The position numbers were made by a program, and so were the translations under genes. From positions 248,001 through 312,000 of the forward strand of contig JAACJM010000034.1 in assembly GCA_013368315.1 (NCBI GenBank): a DNA stretch of 64,000 nucleotides, given 5' to 3'. Source of the DNA: Tetrapyrgos nigripes (Eukaryota; Basidiomycota; Agaricomycetes; Agaricales; Campanellaceae). Numbering within the stretch: the stretch's first letter is position 1; each line of letters starts with the position of its first letter. Shown here one piece after another: positions 23,801 to 45,966 of this stretch. Below the pieces are notes generated by a model. The model saw nothing but the letters and a program-made list of their open reading frames with translations. It was not told where the DNA came from and did no database searches.

Positions 23801-26279
23801 GTCATGTTGCCACTGCCCTGTGAGAATATATCGGAAAGTTCTGCTATGTATACCTGGACAATATCATCATATGGTCCAAGGATGAGGACGAACATGCCCG
23901 ACATGTGGAATTAATATTAGAGGCATTAAAGCGTAACAAACTTTATTGTAACTCCAAAAAGTGCAAGTTCTTCCAGACTGAGATTGACTTTTTGGGCCAC
24001 CATATCTCCCATCGTGGTATCGAGGCACAGAGTGGCAAGTGCAATGCCGTTCTCCATTTCCCACGTCCTCATTCTGCAGCAGCAGTTTGTCAGTTCCTCG
24101 GAATGGTGCGATTCATCGTGGGTTACTTGCACAACCTGGCTGAGTACACACACGTCTTGACACCTTTTACCAAGAAGGAATGTAATAAGTCTTTCCGGAA
24201 TGGACTAGCGATCATGAAAAAGCCTTTGTTCGGATTAAGGAATTGGTAGTAGAACGCGCAGCGTTGACGACGATTGACCACACGAACCCTGGGGACAACA
24301 AGATCTTCTTGGTTTGTGATGCCAGCAATTGGCATACAGGCGCTATTCTAGCGTGGGGTCCAGATTTAAAATTGGCAAAACCTGTGGCCTTCGATTTGGC
24401 ACAGCTCTCGGGTGCTGAGTTGAATTATCCTGTTCATGAGAAGGAATTGCTAGCTATCATACGCACATTGAAGAAATGGCATGCGGACTGCATAGGAATG
24501 AAGATCTGCGTGCTCACTGATCATCGCACCTTGACAAATTTTCAGGGACAGAAGGATTTGAGTACGCAACAGATCCGTTGGCAAGAGTTCCTCAGTCAGT
24601 ACGATCTGGACATTGCGTACTTGCCTGGAGACGAGAACACTGGTGCGGATGCCCTCTCTCAGATCCCGGCTTGCTCTCTACCTGACGAGGCCAAAGATAG
24701 CGTTCCGACACGTGTGTTTGAGTTCTGGAAGAGGGCTTCGGCTGTAGCTCCGGTGATGTCGATTTCGGCAGACAAAGGATACCTGGAGAAGATCAAGTCA
24801 AGTTACCTGGATGACGAGTTCATAAAGAAACTCAAGAAACTCCCTGCCCTGCCTCCTGGTATTGAAAAGCGTGGTGGTTTATGGTTCGTGTCCAACTGTC
24901 TGGTCGTTCCTGCTGGTGGAAACCTATGTAAAACCTTGTACCGGTTGGCACACGATAGTACAGGTCATTTCGGTGGTGATAAGTGTTACACCTTCCTACG
25001 TGACTCGTTCTACTGGCCTAATATGAGGAAGAACTTAGTTGGCTCATATGTGCCCTCATGTGCAGAATGTCAGTGAAACAAAGGTTCTACTGCTAAGTCT
25101 AACAAGGGTCCCTTACACCCACTACCTGTTCCAGATGGTTGCTTGGAAAGTGTTGCCTTGGATTTCATTGGACCGTTACCTGAGGACAAATGGTTCAATT
25201 GCATATTGTCTATGACAGACAGACTTGGGGCAGACCTTCGCATTGTGCCAACTAGAACCGACTCCACCGCTGAAAACTGTGCCTTGTTATTTTTCAATGA
25301 ATGGTACTGTGAAAATGGCTTGCCCAGTGAGCTAGTGTCAGATCGAGACAAGCTGTTTGTCTCTAAGTTCTGGAAAGCCTTCACGACATTGACAGGTGTC
25401 AAATTAAAAATGTCTTCAGCCTTCCATCCAGAGACAGATGGCTTGTCTGAGTGGTCTAACAAGACCATTAACCAATCCTTGCGTTATTACGTGTCACGTC
25501 AGCAGAAAGGTTGGGTCAAAGCGCTGCCCAAGGTCAGGTTCGATATAATGAATTCCGAGAACACTAGCACTGGGATGTCCATGTTTCAGCTCAAAACTGG
25601 AAGGTCTCTGTGTCTGGTGCCTGCTCTGGTACCACAAACAGGGTCAGTTGAGTTGATTGAAAGTGCCCATGCTCGTGAATTCCTGATCCGAATGGTGGAT
25701 ATTGAACAGGATGCTCGGGATGCCCTGTTTGCAGCCAAGGTTATGCAAGCAATACAGGCAGATAAACACTGTGGCCCCCCTCGCAGCTTCAAGGAAGGGG
25801 ACATGGTTATGTTGTCAACTGCTAATCAGCGTAGACAGTACACCCAGAGTGGACAACACCGAGTGGCAAAGTTTTTTCCAAGATTCGATGGCCCTTACAA
25901 GGTGATCTGTGCCCACCCAGAAACGGACTCATATACCTTGGATCTACATAATATGCCTTCAGTTCTCCCTACATTCTATGTGTCGCAGTTGAAACCTTAC
26001 AAGCCGAACAACGACATCGAATTCCCTGGTCGTGCACACGATCCACCACCTGATCCTGTGATGATCAATGGCAGACCTGAGCACTTCATAGATCACATAG
26101 TCGATTCCCGTCAGAGGGGTCGAGGATGGCAATTTTTGGTTCGTTGGGTCGGAGAGGGCCCCGAGGGTGATCAATGGGTTCCGTTTTCGGAAATCCGCGA
26201 CTGTACTTGTGTGGACGAATGGGCTGCTCAAGGTGGCGCAGGTCCAGACGAGGTGTTAACGCCGGAAGTGGCGGAGTAG
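20815..26279 (+). pseudogene. Broken gag-pol polyprotein of a chromovirus
   Basis: The open frame starts at 20815 with a Ser-rich Gag and a zinc knuckle of unusual spacing (CFKC then H and C, CX2CX6HX4C). An aspartic protease motif LDSGSH and a reverse transcriptase follow. A TGA at 23821-23823 interrupts the frame; the context suggests a CGA arginine codon mutated by C-to-T. The RT active site reads YLDN in place of YxDD (Asn codon at 23860), so catalysis should be lost. A frameshift lies near 24190. RNase H (VCDASN, TDHRTL) and integrase follow, with a His/Cys zinc finger ending SCAEC. A second TGA at 25074-25076 is followed by the DDE core around DFIGPL and SAFHPETDG. A C-terminal chromodomain spans about 26085-26230 (VRWVGEGPEGDQWVPF). 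Confidence 0.9.
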
Positions 26280-27501: not shown

Positions 27502-28935
27502 ATGGCAAGAGACATCGACTACAATGTTCTCTTCATTATCGCGGCCTGGGTGGAGGTATGTGCTCTCTGACTCTTTTTCATCGTCGTTGTCGTACTGATT
27601 GATGTCTCTTAGGCTGTCGCATATGGTGAGACTTGGAAGCAACGATCCATTTCCAGTAACGAACTTCTCTCCTAGGCTTTCTTTTTTGCATGTTCTGTGT
27701 GAACATGTACTTCACGTTTGGTGGTGGTAGGTTTTGTCTAGGAGAAAAGTTTTGACAAGGAGTACTTATTCGCCGTTTCTCCCTCAGGTCGAAGAAACTC
27801 CGATGGTCACTCCAAAGTCCTACTGGGAATTTCGGGGTCTATGTTCATCATCGCCACTATCCACGTCTGCTTGTCATGCTATCGCCTGGTCGTAGCATAT
27901 GTTTTTAACCGTCTCAATCGTTTCGGTGGTCCAGCTGGTTTTATGGGTAACTTAGGTCATTGGAGCGCAGTCTTATACGGTGAGTGACGGTGACGCTCCT
28001 CCGCAGTATGATATCACTGACCTTATCGGAACTTACCTTTCAGAAACGCTTTATGCTACGCAGGAGATTTTAGGAGGGGCAGCGGCAGTGTGTAATCCTT
28101 TGACATTCCCAAATTATCTTTCTAACTTTCTGCTCAGATCTACCGGTGTTGGGTAATATGGAATAAGGACTTCAAAATAGTCGCATTGCCCATTGCGTTA
28201 CTCATTATAGCCATGGGTAAGTGGTTTAGACCATTCAAAGCAGAAGCTTTCACTGAAAAACACCCCTCCATGTTAGTGTTCGGATACGGTACAGACGTCT
28301 TGTTTACCAGACAAGGCTCTCTAGAAAGCAACCTCTCCCGACTCCCAATGCTCCTGACATGGATCCGTACTTTCTACGCTGTCGCGGTCGTCCAAAACCT
28401 CCTCACGACCGGGCTTATGGTTTACGCTATTTATCGGAATTACCGGAAGACTGTTGGTGCCAATTTGAGAACGTGAGTGCCGTCCCTGGTTTTGCAATGC
28501 TCAGCCTGACTCTAACCTCACCAGTTACGGGGGAGTTCGCTTGACTTGGTTAATGAGGACGATGGTTGAAGCTGCAGCACTGCAGCTCTTGATTGAGGTG
28601 CTCCTTCTTATACTGTTCTTGTGTAGAACGAGTAAGTCGCCCAGCTCAAGTACCCGTAGTTTCTGACCTTCTCCTCAGACATTCAATACATCTTCCTCGA
28701 CCTGGTCGTTCCAGTCATCGGTATCACTTTCAACGCGATGACAATATCTTATCGGTTGAGATTACTCACAGAGAAAAGCGGTGGCGACACGGCTTTATCT
28801 TCCTGGAAACCAGCCAGTCAACCACGAAGCGACCGCACACAAACCACTATGACTCAAATAGACGACGTCGATGGCATTGAGCTGGATGACGGTACTTATC
28901 GCCGTGATAAGCATCGCAGCCTTGCAGATCTCTGA
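27502..28935 (+). CDS. Multi-pass (about 7 TM) membrane protein, paralogue A
   Basis: Protein of about 345 residues starting MARDIDYNVLF, assembled across about seven short introns. Hydrophobic helices include FLFCMFCVNMYFTFG, IALLIIAMVFGY, LLTTGLMVYAIY and LLIEVLLLILFL. The C-terminal tail is polar and Asp-rich, probably cytosolic. I do not recognise a characterised family; the layout resembles the large uncharacterised sets of seven-helix proteins in Agaricomycetes. It is a close paralogue of the gene at 44481-45966 (shared GNLGHW, YATQE and VGANLR). Its placement near the isocyanide/prenyltransferase genes may be meaningful, because the other copy also sits there. A transport, receptor or regulatory role cannot be told apart. 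Confidence 0.82.
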
Positions 28936-29596: not shown

Positions 29597-30788
29597 CTAG
29601 CTAGTAACTTCATCGATCTTTGGCGTTCCGTCATCGGGTAAACTGTCAAGCGGGATCTGTAACTCAGGGAAGCTAGTCACTCCCTTTGTCGGCGCTCCTG
29701 GGTGCAGAGCATCTGGCGATCCTTTCTCCACGGGGTTTCCAGCACGCATCTCATATCCTTCCCAACTCTGTTGGATTTTTACCGTCAGTGGCAGGCTCCA
29801 TCATGCAAAACGCGCACTCACTTCATCATAAACCCTTGCATTCACGCCAAAAGAACCCAGAATAAGCCAGACCGTACACGCTGTGACACCCCATCCACAG
29901 GTACTTATCACCTGAAGTTCACTGGATTTATTTTGTAATTCATTCAGAAGATCATCTCCGATCACTTTTGCGATAATTCCCTTCCACGTTTCCTCTGGAA
30001 GAACACGCATATCATTAGGTGGCGGCCCGGCAAGGAAGTTGGTGAACGGAAGAGAGATGGACTTAGGAATATGCCCAATATCTGCGTATTCCTCGACAGG
30101 ACGAGTGTCAATGATGACGCGTTCTTTGATACCAGCCTCTGAGGCGACTGATTCAAAAGCTGGTTTTGCATACATTTATCACAAAAATGGGAAGAAATTT
30201 TGAAAAGGTCGACTTACAAGCAATCATCTCCTTATTAGGCTGTACAAATGGATAATCTGAAGGCTCTGTTGCCGAGTAGGATCCAGTTTCAATGGAATAT
30301 CCCGCAGCTCGCCAAGCAGGTAGGCCTCCGTTGAGAACGGACACCTTTTCGTGACCAAAGACCTGTAAGCAACGTGTCCATCATCAGAATATTGCTGCCC
30401 GGTAACCGAATGATAATCAAAGTCATTCGCAGCTCACCTTCAACATCCATGCCCCTCTCGCCGGTGTCCAGAAGCCCATGACATCGTAACAAATAATATG
30501 ATCGTCTCTGCGGATTCCCAAATACCTCATCGCTCCTACAAATTTGCCAGTTGTCGGAAGCATAATCACCGTTTTCAGTTCAGGGTCCTCAGCGGCGTAT
30601 CGCTTCATAGAAAAGAACCTAGCGCCAGGAATGCGCCCATCGAGGTGTTGAGTATATTCGGAGGCAGGTGGGTATACAAGGGATACGTCGAGGGGAATGA
30701 CCCGCGGCCTAGATGCGTCCTGACCTTGGAGCAGTTGGTGTAGTTCTTGGGGAGAGATGAGCTTGGGTACGGAAGTATTGGCAGCCAT
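29597..30788 (-). CDS. Two-domain rhodanese (thiosulfate/3-mercaptopyruvate sulfurtransferase)
   Basis: Transfers sulfane sulfur to acceptors such as cyanide or thiols. It starts MAANTSVPKLISP at 30788. The first rhodanese domain contains HLDGRIPGARFF, the second IIDTRPVEEY and GHIPKSISLP. The catalytic cysteine is in VISTCGWGVTA, matching the CGxGxTA loop of active sulfurtransferases. It ends IDEVTS at 29597 after about four introns; length about 325 residues, normal for two-domain enzymes. No targeting peptide was recognised. It is co-oriented with the prenyltransferase (353 bp apart) and lies next to an isocyanide synthase, so a role in isothiocyanate formation or cyanide/isocyanide defence is attractive. 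Housekeeping sulfur metabolism remains possible. Confidence 0.9.
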
Positions 30789-31140
30789 GTTCGTTGGGTG
30801 AGTGACTGAAAAAGAGTCCTATGATCGCTCCCTACTTATGTGTGGCCGAATCGACCAATACGTAACCCTAGTACCTGATACCACTCGAATGCTGTCCGAT
30901 AGTACGTATCAACAGTCGAATGATGGTTGATTAAGAGAGATTAAGAGAGAGTAGTGCTTTACGACAGTTTACGATTCGAGATGTACTCGAGTGATAGATC
31001 TCAATTGCCTTTGAGACGTACATAAATCCCAGATCATAAGTAATAAAAGACCTCCAGTATCAAAATTATCCGTTGTTCCAACCATATTTACGATATTTTG
31101 GCAATCACACGGGGATATGTACACAGACGACGAGAGAATC

Positions 31141-33097
31141 TTAATTCAACCAAACTTCGGGTGAAAAGTAACTTGTTAACTCCCAACCGTGTTTCTTCAC
31201 GGAGAATGTCATATAAGTCTGAATAGCTTTTCCGGGGGTATCAAGTGGCCTATGAGAACTGGGATGATTTTTGAGATGTGAACGTTTCAGCAATGACTTG
31301 AAGGACTTACTAGGCTTTGGAAACCTCTCGAACAAACCAGCCGTCGGAAAGATGCTCTGTCAGGCCGATACGACGATAGAATCGTTCCAGTGCTTCGCAA
31401 ACATTCAAATCGTTTGCCGAGTATACCCTGTACCGAGATCGGTACGGCCAACATGAATTAGAGAATTTAAGACTCACCGAATGGGAAGGTAGACTTTGGG
31501 AAAGACCAAGTTCTGTCCGGGAACGAACTCGTAATAATACAGTAGTCCGCCGAGAGGGTGCAGATTCTTCTCAGCTTTCACGACGTCTTTGGATCGCTCC
31601 AGGGGTTGCGCATGATTCTCGACAGCGTTCGGGAACATGGTATTCCAAAGTGTCTCCAATACCTTAACGGCTTTTTCCATTTCAGGCCCTTTGAGACGAC
31701 CACCAAGAGTAAAACCGCTCTTGGCATCGTCCCAAGAAGTACCCTTCATAGTACGACAGTAGATCTACAGAAAGTCAATGATGGCAGAGAAGAGAAAATC
31801 GAGATTCTTACTTTCAAGCGATTTTTCGATGGAGTGAGACAGTCGGTAGCTACGATTTCGAATGCAGGGCGAAGCTCCTTATCGATGCTGTTAGTGTATT
31901 CCATCAAAAGATCGAACGGCTGGGCCAGCGACGGATCAAGGTCTTGGGCCAATTTACGGCAGGGTGACAAATCGATATCGCCTAGGAACACAGGACTTTG
32001 CGTGTTTAGTGGAGGAGAGGCCGGATCCCAAGGAGGAGCTCGGAAGGCAACATAATACGCCTTCAGCACTATCGTACCCAATGGACTAAAGTCCATTCCT
32101 GAAAGTTACTGAATTAGAACGCACATTATATGAATCGTTTCACTTACCAAGCATGAAACGACTTCCAGGAAGAACCTCTTCTCCTAGTTCATCGCTCTGA
32201 GAATCTGCATCCTCAGGAAACATGAACTTCTCTATTTTTCGTCGCCAAAGCATTCCGTCGTCTTCAATCTTGACCATGCCACCAAAATTTCCGAGCGTGG
32301 AAACATAATAATCAAGCATTCTTGCGCCCTTGTGGAACTGGCCGGTTTTCGGGTCACTAGATATTCCAGTTTCACCGTCAGAAAGAAGGAATGCAAATAA
32401 TGATGTACTCTTACCGAGGTTCAATCGCAAAGCGAACGTTCCGGTTGGGTTTGTCGTCGGATGTAGCTTCCTTCAGGTTAGAGCTCGGAATGATCCAACT
32501 AAGCTCAATGGGACTTCCATCGAGGGTCATAATGGAAGGAGGAAGAGTGAAAGCATCCGGGCCCAAGAAGGGAACAACTTGTGCATATACGAAGAGGACA
32601 AAGGCGCATTGGATGGGGAGCGGATAATTCTGATGGAAATATTCAGATGGAAAAGAAAGCAATCTATAAGAGTACTTGCCGATGTATCCAACATATGGGC
32701 AAAAGGCAGGACTACCTTGCGCCAATAGAAGTGAGACTGTCCGGAGTCGTCGCCAATGAGAAGCTGTTTTTTTGAAAATATAAGGTCTGAAGATACTAAA
32801 AGTGTCATAAACGGGCTCACATCGGCCAGAATATCGAATAGCTTCAAATCAGTCATTCCTTTGTTAGCCGATGGCTTGCTGTTAGGAGTGCGTCCGTACA
32901 AGGCATGGACAAGCGCTTTGGCATTGTCTTCCAATGACGCGTCTAGTTTCCAGACGGCTTTCAGAATAGCTGCAAGTCCCAACGTAAATGTAAGATCGAA
33001 TTTCGGGTAAGTAAAAGGAACACTGCAACTCACATTGGAGTGGTGCTTCACTGGGGCCTGGAGGTGTCATAGTAAAGGATGAAGATTTCCTATGCAT
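31141..33097 (-). CDS. DMATS-type aromatic prenyltransferase
   Basis: Joins a prenyl diphosphate (usually dimethylallyl-PP) to an aromatic ring, most often the indole of tryptophan, without metal dependence for catalysis; ABBA-barrel fold. Family signposts in order: FYWRKVVLPFAHMLD, VYAQVVPFLGP, DGSPIELSW, VRFAIEP, ATDCLTPSKNRLKIY, GFTLGGRLKG, KVYLPIR followed by NDL, and the C-terminal WELTSYFSPEVW. Start ATG 33097 (MHRKSSSF); an in-frame ATG at 33070 is an alternative. Length is about 460 residues, standard for the family. One intron, 32631-32679, appears to be GC-AG (GCAAGT donor) and is needed to keep frame. It lies 1.3 kb downstream of the isocyanide synthase on the same strand, pointing to a shared pathway. 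Substrate not determinable. Confidence 0.9.
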
Positions 33098-34418
33098 AGC
33101 TTCCAGTCGCTCGAGTCTTTATAAGTAGAATCATCTCCATCAATGAAAGAGGTACAGCATGAGCATTGGTTCCTCCCCAGGGTCATGACTGCAATTACTG
33201 CTCCAGATCAGCGAGTAAATTTAAGTATTTGCTGCGACGGAGAAAAAGAACCGGGAAACGTGTGGGTATCGGACAAGTGATGGAGATATCCGGCCGCCCC
33301 TAGATCAGCCGGAAAAGATGGACAGGAAGACAAATCATAACGTCGTGTGAACAGTGAGACACTTTACCAAAGAAAGACCGAGAACTAATTACATACATGT
33401 TTACCTCGGGCCAAAAATGAAAGCACAAACCATCATGCCATGATGCTGATCCAGCAGGTAATGGTCGATTGCAACGGAATAAATGTTTAGTTCAACAAAT
33501 AGACTCAGAGGGCGGGAGCTAACAAGTATAGGTGCATCTTAACCTATTTCTAGCAGCTAGCAAAATTGGAGATTCATTGGCAACCATCCCGCTCCATATG
33601 TAGGTTCAACAGCTGTATCGCTAGATCCTGATGGACTAGATGTATCAAGAGTTCAATGAAGAGATAGTGGGTGCTGATTTTTACCTGGAACTCAGAATGG
33701 TGGGAGCACACAAAGTACAAGTCTTCAGCGGCCTGAGAGACAGGAAGTCATTATACTGTGCAAATCAGCAGTAGTAGTGCTCTTCGCTCGATCGTAGACC
33801 AATATGTATATCCCATCATTGTCATAGGTAGAGGCACCATCGAGACATCATGACATACCGTGAATCAAGTCCAACTCAGAGATTTCGTTCGACTGCGTGC
33901 TCCTTCTGTCGAACAATCATCCGCCACCAAGTTATTGAGAAGTCTGAGAAAATCAGCTCAAGACTCTGTGAAATTCAGTTGGCACTGCTTCATAGTATGG
34001 ATCAAATTCCTAGCCTTCTGAGTCGTATCAGTCGAAGATGAGTTCTTCTGAGATTCTTGCTCGTCCCTATCATGACGCAGGTGCCTCTCATACATTTCGA
34101 ATTCTATCATTTCCACCGGAGGCTGCTATGCTCGTCTGTCATACAATATGCACTGATATTTCCCAGTTCGGCTATCAGAAGGGTAAGTATCTAGCGTTCA
34201 ATGAAATACGGAAATCTCTCAGTGAGCTCGTTAGATCTAAATTGTACAACTTTAAAACAAAGGAGTAAAGTACAACTATTTACATGAAATAAATAAAGAC
34301 ACAATCCATCAGAGCCAGATAAATATATGTTCCAGCATATGAAGAATTAATCAGAGTTTACAGTAACCGATAATCAACCATAATGGCCCAGAGATTCAGA
34401 AAATGTTTAGAGATCAAG
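33098..34418. other. Intergenic between isocyanide synthase and prenyltransferase
   Basis: Contains the prenyltransferase promoter. Short open frames at 33850-34268 show no family features. No repeats or RNA genes recognised. Confidence 0.4.
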
Positions 34419-37010
34419 TCAGTTAACGTGAATGCGCCACAGCTCCCTTGGACTCGGCACGAATGCAGTCCTTGTGTGCAGCAGCTAAGGGAATAGTTCA
34501 GTACCGGATCAAGATCAGAATCAGTTGTGCCTAAACTTACCTCAACGTTGTCCGCAAGGAGGAAATCTCCCGTCTCCCAAGTGTGAGCAAAGCAAAACCT
34601 GCGATCGTACAACAGATCGGACAGCAGGTCAACAATTGTAGCCTCTTCTTCCCGCGTAGAATCACTGATCCCGACGTTAGTTGCTTTGAACTTCGTTACC
34701 CATTGTGGCCTGCAGTGGGATTCATCAAACACCCCTCGCTTTCATGTAAGGAGACCAGACGTACCAAGGATCATGCCATCTCAATATATCATGACCGGTA
34801 AGCTCGTTCTGCGTGATCAGGGGCAGTTTGAAGTGATCTCCCCCGAATACAGTGTTCTGGGGTGTGTACACCGTCCAGGTCTTTGATGAAAGTAGCTGTC
34901 TCTGCGAAGGAGTGACTCCATATCGCAGGATATCAGCTGTATTCGTCAGAATAGTTTGACCGCCTTCTTGATTCCCTGGTGCTTGGATGCATTGAAAGAC
35001 TTGGAACTGAGGAGGATCATTCGTGATTCGTCCATGTTCGTCGGTCTTGGTCTTGAAAACACCTGCGAGGATGAGACGAATCAATGACTGCGTCAAGAAA
35101 TGCAAAGGTACTGATCACTGACCGTCGTAATGCATAGGCATCGCTTCACAGGTGAGCGAGCTATTTACGTCCCAGTTGGGATTCTCTTTCAGCTCGAAAA
35201 TAGCCCCGTAAGCTGGCCAGCGCCTATACAGATATCAGAATGACCTTGAAACGAGGCTAAGACGATGAAAGCTCATACAAAATTGGTCCTAGCTCTTCAG
35301 ATTTCTTAGTCATATCGTCACGATCAACTTTGGAGAACCCGCGAAGGAGTACACAGGAGTGCATAGTCGTGAGCTTACGCAGTTTGTCCATGGGTAAATC
35401 GTTGAACGACAGGCCGGCGGATGGAGCGCAGGAGACGGTCAATCCGAACGGGAAGTTTCGAGTGAAGGAAATCTGTGCATCGAGCTGTGATCCAAATGAG
35501 TATACGGAAGATTTCTCCCGTACGTAGTAAGGCCGGTCGTATTTCGAAACAATTTCGTAGTTCTTCTTGTCAAACGACTGTAGGGCACCAATTTGGAGGC
35601 GTCCGTCAGCAGCCTCATAAATGACGTTGTGCCACTGTCCAAACATTTGTTATATGCCTAAGAAATCAAGTAGAAAGATGCACTTACTGGTGTAGCAGAC
35701 ATCCTTGAACCAGGGAAGAGGTTTAAAGCGAATTTAGGTCCTTCGTTGGGATGCTCATGACAGCTGAGACGGACACAATTAGGGAATTTAGCTTGGACAA
35801 GGTCGGAGAATTTCTTTGAAAAAGGTCAGTTCTCTAAGCGTCATGGGTTCAGGCCGAGAACTTACCGTTCCGTTGACAATCATTTTTTTGGCAAGCTGTC
35901 GGCGAACTTTATCTCTTTGCTTTCCGGAGAGCGGGTTTCCATCAGGGTCCATCATCATACTCGTTCCGTCTAAATCGAGCTCCAAGAACTTGAGGTATCC
36001 CCGGTATGTTCGGATTACACCGGAATCTTTGCTGATGCTGTCCTCGATATTGTAGTGGGAAATATCGTGGGCAAGGAATTGCGAGCGGATGATGGGAGCG
36101 TCGCGAACGTACTCTTCCGGGGTCATCTCATTCGAATTGGCAGAGAGGGGACCTTCCTGAAGCAGATCTACCAGCCTCACGAATGTGAGGTGCTCCAGCC
36201 GATTCTCCACGCATATTTTACGCAGCTCGGAATTGTATTGGTAGACGTTAGCGTCGCTCTGTCCGAGAAGCTCTAGACTAGAACATCAGAAATCAAAATA
36301 AATTGACATGGAAAAACTTACCACCGTACACGATGCCGTCGCTTACTATGCGAACGATAGCGCCGGGCGCATAGTCGTCCTCAATTGCGCAAGCAAGAGC
36401 CTCCAGTCTATGCAGAAGGAGCTCTTCTCCCAAGTCGGGAAGACGACCAAGGACTTTGCGCGCACTAGGACTCTTGAAAGGGAATCCAGGAAAGACGAGC
36501 TCGATCTTCTCTTGTTGCTGTACATGATGGGAGAGGACATCATATAGAAAACGGCGCCCACATGTTTGGAAGCGGTTATCTTTTCCGTCTAGGAAAAGAA
36601 AGTGGGAGATGACCTCCGTGAGTCGCGCTGCTTGGTCCGGAAGCTCAGCAGTAAACCACCAAGGGCGATGGGCTTTACAGACCACGGCAGCAGGGGCGGT
36701 TCCCGTAGGTTTGCCATTGGAGTCAAGTTTTATATCGACCGGAGGTCGCGAGAATTCTGATGGCGGTAGGCAGACAACCATTGCGTCGACAGAGGAGGAA
36801 TTGTGTACGTATGTGCGTATAACAGCAGGAACCAACTTTTTAAGACGGTTGAGGAGAGAAGCTGTGACTCTAGGCGATATTGCTGGTGCAAAAGTGTGAG
36901 ATGATGAAAAGTTCCTAGATCGGACCAGAAGATCTCCATTTCTTGGCCGTGAATAAATGAGTCAGTACCACTTATTAGAACTAAGCGACAACACCGGTTT
37001 GAGTAGACAT
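34419..37010 (-). CDS. Isocyanide synthase-TauD dioxygenase fusion (DIT1/PvcA + TauD)
   Basis: The N-terminal half is a DIT1/PvcA isocyanide synthase, a family that turns an amino acid's alpha-amine into an isocyanide using ribulose-5-phosphate. Visible motifs: FPGFPFKSPSARKVLGRLPD, YAPGAIVRIVSDG, SQFLAHDISHYN, VRLSCHEHPNEG and PWHNVIYEAADG. The C-terminal half is a TauD-type Fe(II)/2-oxoglutarate oxygenase, typically forming the vinyl group by oxidative decarboxylation. It has MHYDGVF (HxD iron ligands), HTWETGDFLLADNVE and LLHTRTAF (distal His) with RELWRI (2-oxoglutarate Arg). The best start uses a 16-nt first exon (37010-36995, MSTQT) and a 112-nt intron; it joins in frame to AISPRVTAS. 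About 740 residues and roughly eight introns. It diverges from P450 B. Probable substrate is tryptophan or tyrosine, inferred from the neighbouring prenyltransferase. Confidence 0.9.
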
Positions 37011-37442
37011 CCTGAAGGAGTTGTTGATGTCAGATGGATCATCATAGCGAGATGTTGAAATCCCGGCTGAGCCTCCTACTCAGCTGCACAAGCTTTCTAG
37101 TGATGCTGTTACATGTGGATGCAATAAAATTGGATATTGCGATGGCCATGAATTATGATAGCTACCGGCACTTCACGGCAAATATTATCACTGATAGTTC
37201 TCAGATGCAAGGTTCAATCACGAAAATTGAGGGGTTCGATGTCAAATCACTGTCCCAGATGAAGTTTCTTGGAGTATCAGTGCATATCAGACACCTCAGA
37301 GAGGACGAACGATCTTCTCTTCGGAAAATGGCCGCTGCTGGCGTCAATCAATCAATGACTAACTTGAATGACGGCAATACGCGCCGGCACCGTGAGTGAC
37401 GAGTTATCCCACGCGGCCTCGTCTGTTTCGTCTGCAACCACC
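37011..37442. promoter_or_regulatory. Shared divergent promoter of isocyanide synthase and P450 B
   Basis: 432 bp separate the two start codons, which point away from each other, so both promoters must lie here. An open frame at 37034-37399 runs through it but lacks family features. No specific factor site could be assigned. Confidence 0.55.
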
Positions 37443-39576
37443 ATGTCATCGTCGACTCCCCTAATTTACTCCAGCATTGCATTGGGTGTGGTGAGGAATT
37501 TGCTCTCTTTCTTTGAAGGCGTACTCGCGTTCTCATAACTTCTAGGCCAACCACCTCTATTGGAAAAGATATGAACGAGACGACACCAAGTTGAAGACTG
37601 TTGCGATTTCACTGCTTCCCCAGCCAGCAATCCTCGTCGCTTTAGCGCAGAGGTCATTTAGCTTGGCTCCTTTCATAACCTCATACGCTGCATTCTTTCT
37701 TATCTTGGGAACCTCCATCATACTCTATCGAATTTCACCTTTTCATCCTCTCGCTGGAGTGCCAGGGCCGTTCATTGCACGCATTACCAAGTTATGGACA
37801 TACCGCATCACAGCTTCTGGAGAGTTGGCCAGAGCTATGAGGAAACTACATGACGAATACGGACCAGTTGTCCGTACAGGTATTATCTCCTTTCACTCTC
37901 GATAACAGGATGACTGAAGTCTTTGTTTTGCACTGTAGGCCCCAACGAGGTTTCATTCATTGATGGTGATGCTGTGAATGCTATATATGGAACGAATGGT
38001 CTACCTAGGGGAAAGTGTAAGTGTTCTGTCAAGTCTGACACTCGGCATGCGTTCAATGTGACTTTTCAGTCTATACTATCAGAACTGAACCCGGTTCACC
38101 AACCAACCTTCTTTTCACCACGGGTCAGACTCATCAGCGCAGAAGAACACGTTGGAACAGAGCTCTGGGAACCGAATCCCTCAAGAACTATGACGATATC
38201 ATTGCGAGACAGACTGAAGAACTCCTCGATGTCCTCGCCCAAGATTCGAAGGACGGAAAACCTATAGATCTCACGAGGAAGTTCCAGCATTATACGTACG
38301 TGGGCCGTCATAGATCATGGAGCTAATTCTGACCATTCTGGTTATCTATAGTTTTGATGTTATGAGTGATGTTGCGTTAGTACCCACTTAAAGCCGTTAT
38401 TCAGAAAAAGAAAGTTTTACTTTTGTCCTCTAGGTTTGGCCGAAGATTCGGTGTCACTAAAAGTGACGATTCCGCCGGCTACGTCAAGTTCATTCTCGAT
38501 TTCTCTGAGTTAGTCCATATTACCTTTCATTATGCCCTTGTGCGTTCGATAATGTGATTGCTTTGGTCCGTATGTTCAGGTCCATTAACATTCTTGCATG
38601 GCTACCGTGGGCATTTGAAGCTGCCGGACTCATTCCTCATATCGCCAAAGTCAAGAAGCAACTGCTCGGTTTCGCTAGGGAATTGGCTACTTCCAGAGCA
38701 CAGGCCGGAGCAACTCAGAAAGACATTTGGTATCATCTTGTAAGTGAAGATGTCTGAATTCACGCAATCTCGATTTCAACGAACTCGTAATTGTAGATGG
38801 ACGAGGAAGACAAGGAAACTCAAAAGCCGACAATGCCAGAAGTTGTGGCTGATGGAATCCTAGCTATCATTGCCGGTACGGATACCTCCGCTGCTGCGAT
38901 GTCAAGTACCGTTTGGTTTGTTCTTCGACATCCTGAGAACTACAAGATGCTCCAAAAGGAGATAAATGAGGACTTTGCCCAAAATCCCGATGTCAGGGGC
39001 GAGCTACCATATCTTTCCGCTTGCATGTAAGTCAAAACACTTGTTGACCTGAACATGCTGGCTGACTTGGAAACTACTAGTACCGAAGCTTTGAGACTGC
39101 ACCCTCCCAATGCCACCGGTGGTCCTCGCCAAGTTCCCCGTGATGGACCTGGTAAAGTGATCCTCGGGAAGTAAGTACTTCTGGCGCTGCGCTGAATCTT
39201 CAACTGTTGAATGATTGTTCCTAGGTACCTTCCTGAAGGCACTCAAGTCATCGTTCCACCTTACTCCGTCCATAGGAACCCGAACAATTTCTCTTCACCT
39301 ACGCAATATCTTCCGGAACGCTGGCTGCCTGGATCAAAATCCAAATTCCCGAATCACAGATCCGAAACGTTTATTCCCTTCTCTCACGGAGCAGCTAGCT
39401 GCGTCGGACGAGGTCTAGCCCACAAGGAGATGTTGGCACTGCTTTCAGTGTTGTTTTATAAGTATGACATGAAGTTTGCCGATGGTTTCGATGCTGAAAG
39501 CTGGGAGAACACGATTATGGATTACTTCATTAGTCCGATGGGACCGTTGAAGATTGTTTTGACAGCGAGGCACTGA
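37443..39576 (+). CDS. Cytochrome P450 monooxygenase (paralogue B)
   Basis: ER-bound haem-thiolate monooxygenase. Start ATG 37443 opens a 16-codon exon (MSSSTPLIYSSIALGV), spliced to ANHLYWKRYERD, hydrophobic helices and the hinge PFHPLAGVPGPFIA. Downstream: RRRTRWNRALG (C-helix with heme-contact W/R), I-helix AGTDTSAAA, ExxR in TEALRLHPP, PERW-type YLPERW, and haem loop FSHGAASCVGRG. It ends VLTARH. About nine introns, at the same places as in the P450 at 13.6-15.7 kb; the two proteins look about 60-65% identical by eye. It shares a 432-bp divergent promoter region with the isocyanide synthase, so co-expression is likely. It is the best candidate for oxidising the prenylated isocyanide scaffold. 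Confidence 0.93.
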
Positions 39577-40207
39577 GGTCTTTTTGAGTTTGTAGGGTTG
39601 TTCATTGGAGTCGGATGAGTTTGTTGCGGTATTACAAGTTGCATGGCAATAGTAGGATGCCCACAACTTTCTGTATGCTCAGGCAGGATTTCATGGGAGC
39701 TTGTGCCACTATATACTAGTTCCAACAAAATGGATGCGTACTTGGCATTATACGAGGAGGCGGTTTGCAAATTTCTACGAAAGGTCCACACAATATTATT
39801 TTCTCGAGGCACCCGTACAGTACAACGTCTTCAAGTTGCGACGATGATTACTTCTGGGTCGCTGTGCCAGTTTCAGTTAATGAAAATGCCACGCTGAGGA
39901 CTTGGCGTTCGTATGTTTTTTTCGTAAGAGAAGACTCTCAATAGGCCTGTCAGCTGCTAACTCTTGGAGTCACACTGCGCTAGGGCTTTGATGCTTGGTA
40001 GAAAACGGGTACGTTGGTCTTACCAGTTCTTTTTATCCGGTCTCCGTAAAATACCTGCAGGGAAGGAAGCTTTGGACCTCAGACCGTCCCACACCAAAAA
40101 CGCCAACTTATCCGTCGAGCGGATATAATCGTATTTTTGGCGTGTCCGTCACCCATTAGATGATTAGCAGCGCCCATTTTTACGTTTTCGGAGCGGACGC
40201 TGATCGG
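39577..40207. other. Intergenic with a short hairpin element
   Basis: Downstream region of P450 B. Apart from the inverted repeat at 40091-40145 nothing was recognised. Confidence 0.4.
40091..40145. mobile_element. 55-bp hairpin MITE related to the 12.2-kb element
   Basis: An imperfect inverted repeat opens ACACCAAAAACGCC and closes with the complement of ACACGCCAAAAATACG. The core ATCCGTCGAGCGGAT is shared with the element at 12235-12342. Confidence 0.55.
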
Positions 40208-40579
40208 CTAAATTCGGGCTGTATGGTTGAGGTATTTCTTGCCGGTGGGCTCTTCCTGCAAAGCAGGAGGGCTGGAAGTGCTGAAGCGGGAGGCGCCGGA
40301 GTTGCTAGTGGATAATGCTGTAAAACGATGTCGTCAAATGAGAAAAAGGAACAATTAAAACGCATACAACGGTACCCAAATTGTACCATACAAGATAGGT
40401 ATAAGGATTGGGATCGTAGGCAAAGCCATTTGGAGGAACGAAATTCTGAGCCATGTATTAATGAATAACTGAAGATAGAGTATGTATGTAGGTATTAGAA
40501 GGACCGAATGAGGGAGGTGTTTGAGCTCTGGATGCAGCGACAGTACTTGCGTATTTCCGGCGTTCAGTTCGTGGACCAT
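40208..40579 (-). CDS. Small hypothetical protein (about 70 residues)
   Basis: Three exons can be joined into one frame: MVHELNAGNTQ, then NFVPPNGFAYDPNPYTYL, then a Ser/Thr-rich tail ending KKYLNHTARI. The first intron would end at ATGGCTCAG, the second run from GTACCG to TTTACAG. Alternatively translation starts at the ATG just before NFVPP. No family recognised, no signal peptide or CaaX end. It lies between P450 B and the MFS transporter. Support is the coherent splice structure only. Confidence 0.4.
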
Positions 40580-41390
40580 GCCGTGTAATAAAATCCTCCT
40601 CCTCCCTTACCTAGCCTCGGCTACGTCGTGGCTAAAACTTTTGACAGCTCAGAGAAATCCGAAGGCTGCTGTTAATCATCTCTATTCATCGTAATGCATA
40701 GGGAAATAAGTAAGTGCCCTATACTGTAATAGGACCTCGGGCCGTAAGTACATTCGGAAATAAGCGCCTCGGTTCCTAGGCGCCTGACTCTTTCTTTTTT
40801 TTTTCCAAACCGATGGCACTCGAGTGGGGGACCTTTCGTCGTCTCTTACGTCGCTGTTCGAATAAACTACTTTTATACACATCGGGATAGCCCGGCTGAA
40901 GCCTTTGATCCAAGTTTGATCAGCCCTTTGAAACCATTGTCAAAAATAAAATAATGGCCATGATTCTAATCAATATTCTTCGTGAAAGAGTGATCATCGC
41001 AGTCGCAGAGAAACCCAATCTGCTTTGGCCTTTATGTGAGCTAGGCAAGTATCCGGAGAAACCGCTCACAAAAACTTGTATGTTTTACATACGTGGGACC
41101 CTCTGAGTCGAATCAACACAGTTCATTTTTCATTTTTTTGAAACAAAAGGCACCATGATTCCGGCTCGGTGGAATACAAGTAGGGAAGGGAAGTTTTCCA
41201 TGGAAAGTTTAAGGGCGTTATAATCATATCATTCCAAACTAAGATGAATACAAACATGCATATGTACGCGAACAATTGGCCAAAACTCAAACCAGCAAGC
41301 AACACAGTCCAATCCCATCGATATCACAGAACGCTGAGGTTGAGGTCGGATTCCCAGCCCAACCCAACCAAGCACTGATTTCTGCTCTAT
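40580..41390. other. Intergenic, no gene recognised
   Basis: Only short motif-free open frames. Includes the 3' flank of the MFS gene. Confidence 0.4.
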
Positions 41391-43141
41391 CTAAACGAGC
41401 TTCGTGCCCTTCCTCTTCTCCTGCATCGAACGAACGAGGAGGAGTAAGAAGAATCCTGCTAAGACGGTGATGCCACTGAATATGATGGCTTTTGACCAGA
41501 CAAAATTGCGAGTGCCGATAAGTTGACCGTCGATAGGAGGACCCACGAGGAAACCAAGGCCAGCGATCGCATATGCGATACCGAATCGGATTCTAATCAA
41601 AAAACAGTCAGACTTTCAGAGAGGCTGAAAGCATAATACGGCAGTACACACCCTATCTCATGCGGCCCCTTTGCTAAAGAAGCAACCAATGGAGGCACAA
41701 GAGAGAAATCTATTTACGCCACAAAGAGTCAGTACCCAATCCTTTGGATGAGTTCCAGCGTGAAAACTCACATGCTCCAGAGAAGAAACCGTAAATGATA
41801 ACGAACACAATCATAGAACCAACTTTCAGTGTCCCGTAGAGGGCGAAGATCATAGCTCCACTGATTCCTACACAGGGTAACAAGGCGTTGAAGGGACCCC
41901 ATTTATCGGCAGCAATGTTCGGAAGGAGTCGACCAGGAAGAGAGGCTGCACTCAGAATCGCAAGCTGTATAATGCAAAATTGGTCAGTCAAGGGAGAATA
42001 TTGAATTTCAGAAGCAAGGGCAATACGTACGAAGTAGAACGCAATGTTCTCGTCAACTCCATGCACGATACCGAATAGTTGGATGTAGAAATCTGTAAAA
42101 TGTGATTTAGTCGCTTCAAACCGAGGAAGGTAGTCAACAAGACTCACAAGGGAAGAATAGACCCATATTGATCAAAGTGCAACTGTAAACATCACCGGTC
42201 ACAGATCGAGGCCGTTAGAAAATGGCTCAAGCGAGCGTATCGTACATAACACCTACGCCAGGATACACAACCAGTATGGGATATCTCTCATCATGAACGC
42301 CATGTCGGGTTTCGGCCTGTTGGAAAGATCTGGTTGATTGTCGCTCATAAGAAGGTTCGCGATGACAAGAAGTCCGAGCACGAGGAAAGCTGACGCCCGG
42401 ACTCCCCATTCGAACCCGACCGAGGGGTGTTTGAAGAGCTGGTTCAGCATGATAGGAAAGAAGATACTGCCCAGAGAAGATCCTTCAGACGAGGAATGAG
42501 CTTGTTGTAGAGCATATTTGCAAGAGAAACGAACCAATGGTAACCACACCCATAGCAAATGCCCGGTGAGCCTGCCAGTGGCGTGATTGAACGGCGACAG
42601 CGGGAAGATACATCAGACCAGCGCCGATTCCCATTCCTAAACCTTGCGACAAGAAGATCTGGTAATATTTGTCTGTGTGCGCAATAGAAACCATAAAGAG
42701 GCTGCGCAGTGTTAAAATCAGCCCAGGAATCTCAGCGAGAGGCAGGAGGACGTACGAAAAGACATATAGGAGTGAACCGGCCACAGTCGTCTGACGGAAG
42801 TAGCCCATATCCAACAGTTTCCCAGCAGGCAAAGACATCGCAAGGAGGAAGAACATTTGCGTAGAACCGATCCAACTGATTCGAGAAGTTGACGCTGCAC
42901 CAGCGCGAGTGTAGATGTCTTGATACACTCCGAACGCATTTATGTAACCAAAGGTGACCATCGCCACGAGGAAGCTACGAGAACGGATGTCACTGTCTCT
43001 GAGACTACGGAAGATTCGTTGTAAAGCATACCCTCCAAGCACTGTCAACCATGCCCTCGCGCCAACATCTCCAAATCCTGTATTCTCCTGAGCAACAACC
43101 TTCTGTTCACTCGCGGTCGAGCCAGTTTCTTCCTTCGACAT
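41391..43141 (-). CDS. MFS transporter (monocarboxylate-porter-like)
   Basis: Major facilitator with about twelve membrane helices in the plasma or an internal membrane. Start MSKEETGSTASEQ at 43141 gives a polar cytosolic N-tail. Helices include FLVAMVTFGYINAFGVYQ, MFFLLAMSLPAGKLLDMG, LGMGIGAGLMYLPAVAVQ with SRHWQAHRAFAMG (typical of the monocarboxylate-porter group), GSSLGSIFFPIML, FYFLAILSAASLPGRLLPN and YAIAGLGFLVGPP. It ends GTKLV. Roughly eight introns. It lies between P450 B and membrane protein B, the usual place for an exporter of a cluster product, but this subfamily also imports organic acids, and direction cannot be told from sequence. Confidence 0.88.
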
Positions 43142-44480
43142 CGTAGATATGCTGCGGATGCTAGGGATGTTACTGTACAAAAGTATATGCAGCCAGTAGC
43201 AGTAGCGGAGGAAGGGGAAGGACGAACACAAAGAACCCGGAATATAATAAGTATACTTAACGCACCCGCAATACCCGTAATTGATCCCACCTCGTTTCCC
43301 GTAGTAGCGCTGTTCGTAGGTGAACACGGGAGAACCTCAATTGAGCCTCGAATCAACGCTGAGTAATCAGATCAGTCTGTTGCAACCCTGCCCTCTTTAT
43401 CCTGTAACCTGTTCTTATGAAGCTCTGTCGGGGAAGTTTTTCGTCCATGTAGGCCGTACCAGTACTTTAGGCGCCCGGCATTTCAAGAATATACCGCTAA
43501 CCCACCTTTTCTCCCTGGGAGGTGTAGACTGGCCAAACCGTGGTCCCGATGAAATCTGGCTATAACAGGACTAAATGAAAGAACCCATCCTGATTCGTGA
43601 TGACTGGTAGTATACGATACGGAACTTATCCATCAAGTGGAGATCGTAGCTCACTTCAAGACATGGAGTATTCATAAGAATGCAACCAGCAAGATCTCGT
43701 GTGAATATCAACGGGAGCTCGTCTTTTCCATCAAGAGAACCTCACAACTACAGACTGTCTAGCCCTGGAGGGCAGAATGACGAGAAGAAAGTAAGTGAGA
43801 AAAAAACCTAAACGCCCATAATCTTTATCTGACTGTATGTCTAGTGTGGCGACTTTCGAGTCTATCAGGCTCTCCTACGGCCAACATCTGATCCTATCAT
43901 GATCGTTCGGGCTTATGCTGCGACAGGTGCATGCGTTCATCAAGTTATCATTGTCACATATGTCGACAGCGTGAGAATTAAGACTGAAGGAAGTCCGCCG
44001 AAAGAGCTTGCAGTAATTTGTGCGGTTGACGTGGTAGGGGTCAGTCTTTTGTGATCGAAGCTGTAGAAAGTCATAAGTATTCCATAAGTTCGTACATCAA
44101 GGTCTGATGTTACCATCTGTAGCAAATCTGTAGGCTGTCTTTTACCTACTAAATAATCTTTCAAAGTGGAGGACTTCGATCGCCGACAACTTCCAATCAA
44201 AGTCTGATAGGGCACGAACGCCTAGTGACTTCTGAGGAGCTTTGACAGCTGGATATCAAGCTTGCTGTCACTGGTCATGAATCCTAGATGACCACCGGAT
44301 AAATTACTCTCGTCTTCATTCATGAGGGATCAAAAGGTCTCTGTGCCTATCGCTTAGGCAGCAGGCTTGATCGTAAATGAATTGATTTTCCCCTTTGGTT
44401 CTAAGCCTAGCCTGGGTACAAAAGGTCCGACGATTCTGCCCTCGATAAGTCCGAACTCTTTGCCACTCGCAGTCTGTAAG
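43142..44480. other. Divergent intergenic region, MFS gene / membrane protein B
   Basis: 1.34 kb between divergent starts; must contain both promoters. No gene or repeat was recognised. Confidence 0.45.
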
Positions 44481-45966
44481 ATGGCTGGCAGGGACATAGA
44501 CTACAACGTTCTTTTCATCGTAGCAGGTTGGATCGAGGTTTGTCTCCTGTTCCCTTATCAGTAACTTATCCTGATCCCTCATCTCCGTCATCTTAGGCCG
44601 TTGCATATGGTGAGGATTTGAATGGAGTACTTCGTGATCTGCAGCCTGAGTACATTCTTGTCTAGGGTTCCTCTTCTGCATGTTTTGCGTTACTTTATAT
44701 TTCACATTTGGCGGAAGTATGTACAAGTCTTCAACGATTTATTGTTCTGACCTCACAATTTATTTCGACCGAAAGGCAGCCGCAGATCCTACGACGCCCA
44801 TTCCAGAATCCTTCTTGGCATTTCGACTTCCATGTTCTTGATCGCTACTTTACATGCTTGTATCGGTTGCTATCGTCTTGTCGCCGCATACGTCTTCAAT
44901 GGTAGGAATCCAAGAGGTGGACCCGCTGGTTATCTGGGCAACCTTGGTCACTGGGACGCAATCTTATACGGTAAGCAATTCGTGAGACTATTAAACACTG
45001 TCTCTGAACTACTGTCTGATTTTTTAGAGGTCCTGTATGCTACGCAGGAGGTATTGGGAGGGGCTGCTGCCGTGAGTTAGCGTCATGTCGTGACTATTCT
45101 TCTTCCTAACGGCTGTGATCTTCAGATCTATCGATGCTGGGTCTTGTGGAATAAGCAGTTCAAGATCGTTGCCCTTCCCATCGCTTTGCTCATTGTGACA
45201 ATTGGTAAGTAATGTTGATCCTTGTGCTCGCAGAGGCATTTGCTAAATCAGCGTAACCATCTCAACAGTGTTCGGGTACTGGACCGATGCCCTATTCACT
45301 AAACAGGGCACGAACGAATCCACTCTACACGAGCTTATACAGCTTAAGCACTGGATCCGTACATTCTACTCTGTCGCTGTGGTCCAGAATATCCTCACCA
45401 CTGGTCTCATGATCTATGCCATCTATCGAAACTATAAGCAAACGGTCGGGGCTAATCTCAGAAGGTAAGACCTGCGATTTTCAAATAATAGCTAGAGGTT
45501 GAATGATCCTTTTCGTTTTCGTGTGGGCCTCAGCTTTGGAGGTATTCGTATGACTTGGTTGATGAGGACCTTGGTAGAAGCTGCAGCGCTTCAGTTGTTG
45601 ATCGAGTTGCTTCTGCTCATCCTCTTCTTGATCGGCACCAGTAAGTTTTATCGAGGTCTGTGATTAATCGAATCTTATTCTGAAAATTCTTTAGATATCC
45701 AATACATCTTCCTCGATGCTGTTGTACCCGTCATCGGCATTACCTTCAACGCTATGACCATCTCCTACCGCCTGAGGATATTGACAGAATCCCGTGGCGA
45801 TACCCAGTGGTCGTCGTCTTTCAAAGCTGCTACTGCCAGCAGCCAGTTGCCCAGAAGCGATCATTCGCAAAGTACACGTGTGGGTGTAGACGTTGACGTG
45901 ATTGAGCTGTCCGGGAACGGTTCGCTGTACCATAAAGAGAGGCGTAGCAGCTTCGAAGATGTCTGA
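44481..45966 (+). CDS. Multi-pass (about 7 TM) membrane protein, paralogue B
   Basis: Starts MAGRDIDYNVLF and splices over about seven introns at the same places as its paralogue at 27.5-28.9 kb. Hydrophobic helices: FLFCMFCVTLYFTFGG, ILLGISTSMFLIATLH, IALLIVTIVFGYW, ILTTGLMIYAIY, LLIELLLLILFLIG and VVPVIGITFNAMTISY. The tail is polar (about 60 residues), ending RRSSFEDV. Family function is not known to me; a receptor, transporter or scaffold is possible. The two copies are very similar in their helices and diverge in their tails. A palindromic MITE begins 11 bp after the stop codon, so it should lie in the 3' UTR. Confidence 0.83.

Follow-up and report, generated by a model that had tools for sequence, protein, structure and literature searches.

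What a mushroom might build with an isocyanide synthase, an aromatic prenyltransferase and a sulfurtransferase encoded side by side is the question raised by a 64,000-nucleotide stretch of the Tetrapyrgos nigripes genome (referred to as the window; positions 248001-312000 of contig C34, in an assembly of 98,461,257 bases and 587 contigs). Four genes between positions 29597 and 39576 form the core of this locus, all intact in both alleles: a rhodanese, a DMATS-type aromatic prenyltransferase, a fusion of a DIT1/PvcA isocyanide synthase with a TauD-type iron/2-oxoglutarate (Fe/2OG) oxygenase, and a cytochrome P450. This gene set is real and common to marasmioid fungi, and it is a new variant of fungal isocyanide cluster. 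Judging from the sequences and by analogy with a bacterial pathway, we give about even odds (a probability of roughly 0.5) to its product being a prenylated aryl-vinyl isothiocyanate, which would arise from a vinyl isonitrile sulfurated by the cluster's own rhodanese.

The fusion (34419-36781, minus strand; spliced model of 8 exons, 660 residues) is 100% identical over all 660 residues to the deposited T. nigripes protein D9758_008353, and the two-domain rhodanese (29597-30788, minus strand; spliced model of 4 exons, 334 residues) matches D9758_008351 in the same way over all 334 residues. The prenyltransferase gene (31141-33070, minus strand; corrected spliced model of 9 exons, 500 residues) lies between them, and the P450 gene (37443-39576, plus strand; spliced model of 10 exons, 538 residues) diverges from the fusion gene across a gap of 661 bases (36782-37442, from the model coordinates). 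All four proteins exceed their Pfam cut-offs (225.3 bits for the P450 against p450), and all introns of the four genes have GT-AG ends, with the sole exception of one GC-AG intron in the prenyltransferase gene. A preliminary description of this DNA, made from its letters alone, had assigned it to a basidiomycete and had listed a synthase-TauD fusion, a DMATS prenyltransferase, a P450 and a sulfurtransferase; the exact matches to T. nigripes proteins confirm the former, and the models together with the Pfam scores the latter. With 97.4-97.8% DNA identity across the cluster, contigs C34 and C247 appear to be allelic, and all four core genes are open in C247. The gap between the fusion and P450 genes may hold a promoter common to both; it is poorly alike between the two alleles, only 36878-37184 aligning to C247, at 79%.

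The fusion carries a DIT1_PvcA domain (244.7 bits, cut-off 26.4) and a TauD domain (100.1 bits) within one protein; NF045653, the equivalog for tyrosine isonitrile synthases of bacteria, is matched at 104.8, below the cut-off of 600. When aligned with 7TCL (HYDGVFK, RWHDP), its TauD half has a Lys at the position of PIsnB Lys107 and a His at that of Asn188, and the metal-binding His-x-Asp and distal His of a PIsnB-type enzyme are present along with both of these residues. According to Kim 2022 (PMC9467999), vinyl isonitrile formers have Lys or Arg at the first position and Asn or His at the second, and isocyanoacrylate formers have Leu and Cys. Both TauD residues would thus forecast a vinyl isonitrile as the product of the fusion. 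Protein searches covered the best 120 of 131 matches for the synthase, 15 of 15 for the prenyltransferase and the best 120 of 443 for the rhodanese; in a motif scan of these 120 synthases, the first position reads Lys (86 proteins), Arg (9), Phe (9), Met (3), Val (2) or Asn (1), and the remaining 10 showed no motif. Lys is therefore widespread among the fungal synthases listed and not special to this cluster.

Seven synthase loci are found in the T. nigripes genome (contigs C34, C247, C2, C51, C115, C281 and C446). A tree built from 24 synthase proteins joins these seven copies in one group (97/95), next to Marasmius oreades and Collybiopsis, with Stygiomarasmius placed outside (100/99). Among the matches listed, synthase and TauD domains also occur within one protein in the moss Ceratodon purpureus and the amoeba Balamuthia mandrillaris, and synthase, TauD and DJ-1 domains within one protein in Aspergillus fumigatus and Emarellia grisea.

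The second core enzyme clearly belongs to the DMATS family. The window prenyltransferase scores 210.3 bits against Trp_DMAT (cut-off 25), this score and the genome and protein searches with the prenyltransferase having been obtained with a model still containing one 57-base intron. Its M. oreades orthologue lies above the cut-off of DMATS subfamily TIGR03429 (248.4 against 163.85) and far below that of the tryptophan dimethylallyltransferase TIGR03430 (59.7 against 740.75). With the corrected model, and the M. oreades protein as guide, the prenyltransferase reading frames are open on C34, C247, C2, C51 and C115. The donor of the GC-AG intron (32630-32679) is GC in C34, C247 and C115 and GT in C2 and C51; the intron model is supported by this alternation at the same junction, which is a natural splice-donor change among the prenyltransferase copies. 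In a prenyltransferase tree of 16 rows the marasmioid group is recovered (99/100), and the order of the T. nigripes copies, M. oreades and Collybiopsis luxurians within it is not separated.

The association of these two genes extends well beyond the window. At five of the seven synthase loci (C34, C247, C2, C51 and C115), the synthase is followed on its own strand by the prenyltransferase, with the gene order unchanged. No prenyltransferase was matched on C281 or C446, which also look allelic (97.7% over 10.8 kb) and whose homology to C115 ends just before the prenyltransferase start. A one-base frame break is seen in the last exon of the C281 synthase copy. When C34 is compared with its non-allelic counterparts, the ratio of nonsynonymous to synonymous substitution rates (dN/dS) is 0.111-0.166 for the fusion (C2, C51, C115, C281 and C446) and 0.086-0.102 for the prenyltransferase (C2, C51 and C115): these copies are under purifying selection.

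The same genes travel together in other genera. Marasmius oreades carries a rhodanese (E1B28_013475), a prenyltransferase (013476) and a synthase (013477) under consecutive locus tags on one contig of 3,005,252 bases, Stygiomarasmius scandens a prenyltransferase (VKT23_014708), a synthase (014709) and a rhodanese (014711) on one contig of 461,162 bases, and C. luxurians all three together on a contig of 481,823 bases; Flagelloscypha sp. PMI_526 has the synthase and the prenyltransferase together on a contig of 347,564 bases. Among the matches listed, the synthases nearest to that of the window come from five species (T. nigripes included); five of these have the rhodanese, four the prenyltransferase, and four all three on one contig. 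The preliminary description had named beforehand the linkage of synthase and prenyltransferase in relatives as a point on which its cluster could fail, and that linkage is conserved in M. oreades, S. scandens, C. luxurians and Flagelloscypha. Chance neighbourhood was considered and rejected, since these gene pairs are seen again both at paralogous loci and in further genera.

It could still be argued that the synthase and the prenyltransferase serve separate pathways, their closeness having been inherited without any function. Two further prenyltransferase copies (C194:2387-4688 and C201:53479-55329) do have no synthase match on their contigs, the allelic synthase copies on C281 and C446 lack a prenyltransferase, and in Collybiopsis confluens the linkage of synthase and rhodanese has been lost. 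Set against this are the retention of the pair in one order and orientation at five of seven loci, its presence on one contig in four further genera, and dN/dS values of 0.086-0.166 for non-allelic copies of the two genes, so that we regard such independence as very improbable.

The rhodanese is the most telling gene of the cluster. It has the two rhodanese domains, the catalytic Cys and the fold of its superfamily (Pfam Rhodanese 77.2 bits, above the cut-off; a predicted local distance difference test score, pLDDT, of 90.9 for the predicted fold). Its closest relatives form a clade of five members at 63-100% identity, all from synthase-bearing species, the remaining 115 of the best 120 matches being at 37% or less. 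The catalytic Cys is conserved in all 120, and its surroundings are not: within the loop C253-G-W-G-V-T, position Cys+2 is Trp in 5/5 clade members and in 0/115 of the other matches listed. Arg188 is replaced by Glu in 5/5 (Arg kept in 114/115 of the others), Arg197 is deleted in 5/5 (Arg kept in 104/115) and His74 is replaced by Ile in 5/5 (His kept in 110/115). The tail after the catalytic Cys is also longer: it has 82-84 residues, where the median is 44.

These changes set the clade apart from both familiar types of rhodanese. In human 3-mercaptopyruvate sulfurtransferase (3MST), mercaptopyruvate is held by Arg188 and Arg197 (PMC12926118); in all five clade proteins both of these residues are changed, as is the Ser-His-Asp triad (with Trp for Ser250), and the score against the PRK11493 equivalog is 109.1 (cut-off 250). 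Nor does the window protein have the signature of a classic thiosulfate:cyanide sulfurtransferase, since in an alignment with bovine rhodanese C-G-W-G-V-T replaces C-R-K-G-V-T and Glu-Glu-Tyr aligns with Gly-Arg-Tyr, the active-site Arg being absent. Within the T. nigripes genome, C34 and C247 carry the gene intact, and it survives as a relic on C51 (its first 76-80 residues gone, its last exon about 7 kb away); a genome-wide search gave no match to it on C2, C115, C281 or C446, the other matches being a single fragment (C266) and a remote relative at 36-37% (C15).

Taken together, the four enzymes suggest the following route. Starting from an aromatic amino acid (tyrosine, most probably), the fused synthase and TauD oxygenase would build an isonitrile and then introduce the double bond as CO2 is lost, as their families and residues indicate. 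The DMATS enzyme, judged by its family, would place a dimethylallyl group on the ring or the phenol oxygen, at a point in the order that is not fixed. The rhodanese Cys253 would then take up sulfur as a persulfide and pass it to the carbon of R-NC to give R-NCS, a step suggested by the linkage of its gene, by its changed active site and by a precedent from bacteria. The P450 would presumably oxidise an intermediate or the product. The precedent is the Burkholderia gladioli rhodanese RhDE, reported to convert an isonitrile and thiosulfate into the isothiocyanate sinapigladioside (credited to Hertweck's group; PMC12112954), and it is because a bacterial rhodanese reportedly performs this conversion that a vinyl isonitrile, then prenylated and sulfurated, appears to us the best reading of the cluster. 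As the altered rhodanese is found, among the matches listed, only with this gene set, an isothiocyanate is a likelier end product than a free isocyanide. The prenylated aromatic isocyanide proposed in the preliminary description may therefore be right as far as the predicted enzymes for a prenylated isonitrile go, and probably stops one step short of the end product; its sulfurtransferase is likewise real, what it had missed being that this is an altered rhodanese, confined to this gene set among the matches listed. We would extend this reading, tentatively and at a shade under even odds, to a cluster in marasmioid mushrooms dedicated to isothiocyanates, in which a rhodanese was rebuilt solely for the sulfuration of a prenylated isonitrile; this would be a eukaryotic isothiocyanate pathway with neither glucosinolate nor myrosinase.

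A different role for the rhodanese would be that of a guard against escaped isonitrile or the cyanide released from it, standing in for an isocyanide hydratase, with a free prenylated vinyl isocyanide as the product. Such a hydratase, thought to protect the producer, is present in 21.1% of fungal isocyanide synthase (ICS) clusters (PMC10153163), and rhodanese is known as a cyanide scavenger (PMC12112954). In T. nigripes, a six-frame search scoring the best candidates only gave four DJ-1 matches (C196, C14, C182 and C24), none of them on a synthase contig, and the synthase-prenyltransferase pairs on C2, C51 and C115 persist without an intact rhodanese. However, the window protein has not kept the residues that mark a classic cyanide rhodanese (the loop Lys replaced by Trp, an Arg aligned with Glu), a guard alone would need no rebuilt active site, and the clade rhodanese is confined to synthase-bearing species among the best 120 of 443 matches, which makes this explanation rather unlikely. 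The vinyl residues, the RhDE precedent and the lack of a hydratase on the synthase contigs together make a free isocyanide less likely than an isothiocyanate, or at the least than a rhodanese that consumes the isonitrile. Alternatively, the rhodanese could supply sulfur for another bond (a thioformamide, a thiocarbamate or a persulfide-derived thioether) or for the product of the P450, the isonitrile being altered in some other way; the isonitrile carbon is the obvious sulfur acceptor, with a reported rhodanese precedent, and we find this improbable.

Several observations nevertheless weigh against an isothiocyanate product. With its arginines lost and its triad altered, the rhodanese could be a sulfurtransferase of reduced activity, or one of quite another kind. 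The loci on C2, C51 and C115 keep a selected synthase-prenyltransferase pair without an intact rhodanese, and Flagelloscypha has the pair with no clade rhodanese among the best 120 of 443 rhodanese matches. The pair must therefore be useful without the rhodanese, and the C2, C51 and C115 copies may be free isocyanide makers, or else feeders of the single intact rhodanese gene. In C. confluens, the synthase and the rhodanese sit on separate contigs, and no prenyltransferase of this species is among the 15 of 15 prenyltransferase matches. Linkage outside T. nigripes is moreover read from locus tags and shared contigs rather than from coordinates. As for the chemistry, single mutations did not switch the product in the paper that gives the TauD rule (PMC9467999), and the substrate could be Tyr or Trp, the hint from the prenyltransferase residues being too weak to choose between them.

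Several systems already described invite comparison. Hapalindole-type pathways of cyanobacteria join an aromatic vinyl isonitrile with an aromatic prenyltransferase, and isothiocyanate forms of hapalindoles are known; their prenyltransferase belongs to another fold family. The sinapigladioside pathway of B. gladioli likewise proceeds from an isonitrile precursor to which a rhodanese is reported to add sulfur, giving an isothiocyanate; it differs in being bacterial and, to our knowledge, in having no DMATS prenyltransferase. As is the case in T. nigripes, the synthase of the A. fumigatus xanthocillin (xan) cluster is fused to a TauD domain (XanB), and among the matches listed, XanB-type proteins from Aspergillus share 34-37% identity with the window fusion. 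The xan cluster contains an isocyanide hydratase homologue (PMC5974471). T. nigripes, unlike xan, has a DMATS enzyme and a rhodanese, with no isocyanide hydratase found on its synthase contigs, and the xan-type arrangement of a DJ-1/PfpI gene beside the synthase was not seen.

The synthases themselves had been counted before: Nickles 2023 (PMC10153163) lists six ICS clusters in T. nigripes, among 3,800 fungal isocyanide clusters, and its main text nowhere mentions a prenyltransferase, DMATS, rhodanese or sulfurtransferase. Their link with a prenyltransferase and a rhodanese is apparently new to the literature searched, no fungal synthase linked with both having been found in the open-access literature, from which subscription papers are mostly missing; nor did that literature yield anything relevant on Marasmius isothiocyanates or M. 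oreades isocyanides. The recruitment of a ubiquitous sulfurtransferase for isothiocyanate formation has been proposed for bacteria and sponges (PMC12112954). If the T. nigripes rhodanese does sulfurate the isonitrile, this idea would become testable gene by gene in a mushroom, and the cluster would represent a fungal route, assembled without plant glucosinolate chemistry, to a class of compounds best known from plants (the mustard oils). M. oreades, in which the locus tags of the three genes run on without a gap, could serve as an organism for bench work.

Comparison of the two alleles also delimits the cluster. The preliminary description had counted a major facilitator superfamily (MFS) transporter (41391-43141, minus strand) and a predicted membrane protein (44481-45966, plus strand) among its members. 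Both fall outside the core and were rejected as core genes because in allele C247 the MFS gene is cut up and the membrane gene was not found. The MFS gene (73456-75637 in C247) is represented there by aligned pieces only, with inserts between them, and the 40 kb examined on that contig showed no first exon; in the window, this first exon alone scores 23.3 bits against Pfam MFS_1, under the cut-off of 33.4. The 44481-45966 gene was not found near the C247 cluster, where only its paralog from the opposite flank (28126-28932, plus strand, in the window) was seen; the two membrane proteins flanking the cluster share 73% and 54% identity over two exons.

Beyond the MFS pieces, C247 carries the 3' end of a second P450 gene. 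On C34 the distance to that gene is about 28 kb, so the two haplotypes differ by a rearrangement. A retroelement lies beside the cluster at about 20815-26276 (plus strand), with long open frames and with RNase H and integrase domains in one scanned frame (24189-25073). Within this genome, the P450 of the cluster has its nearest kin in the second P450 (13607-15657, minus strand), which we treat as associated with the cluster and at most as a possible member. No relative of it was found in the stretch examined at C2; relatives or pieces of it do occur near the synthase on C51, C115, C281 and C446, and its association with the synthase may be of older date.

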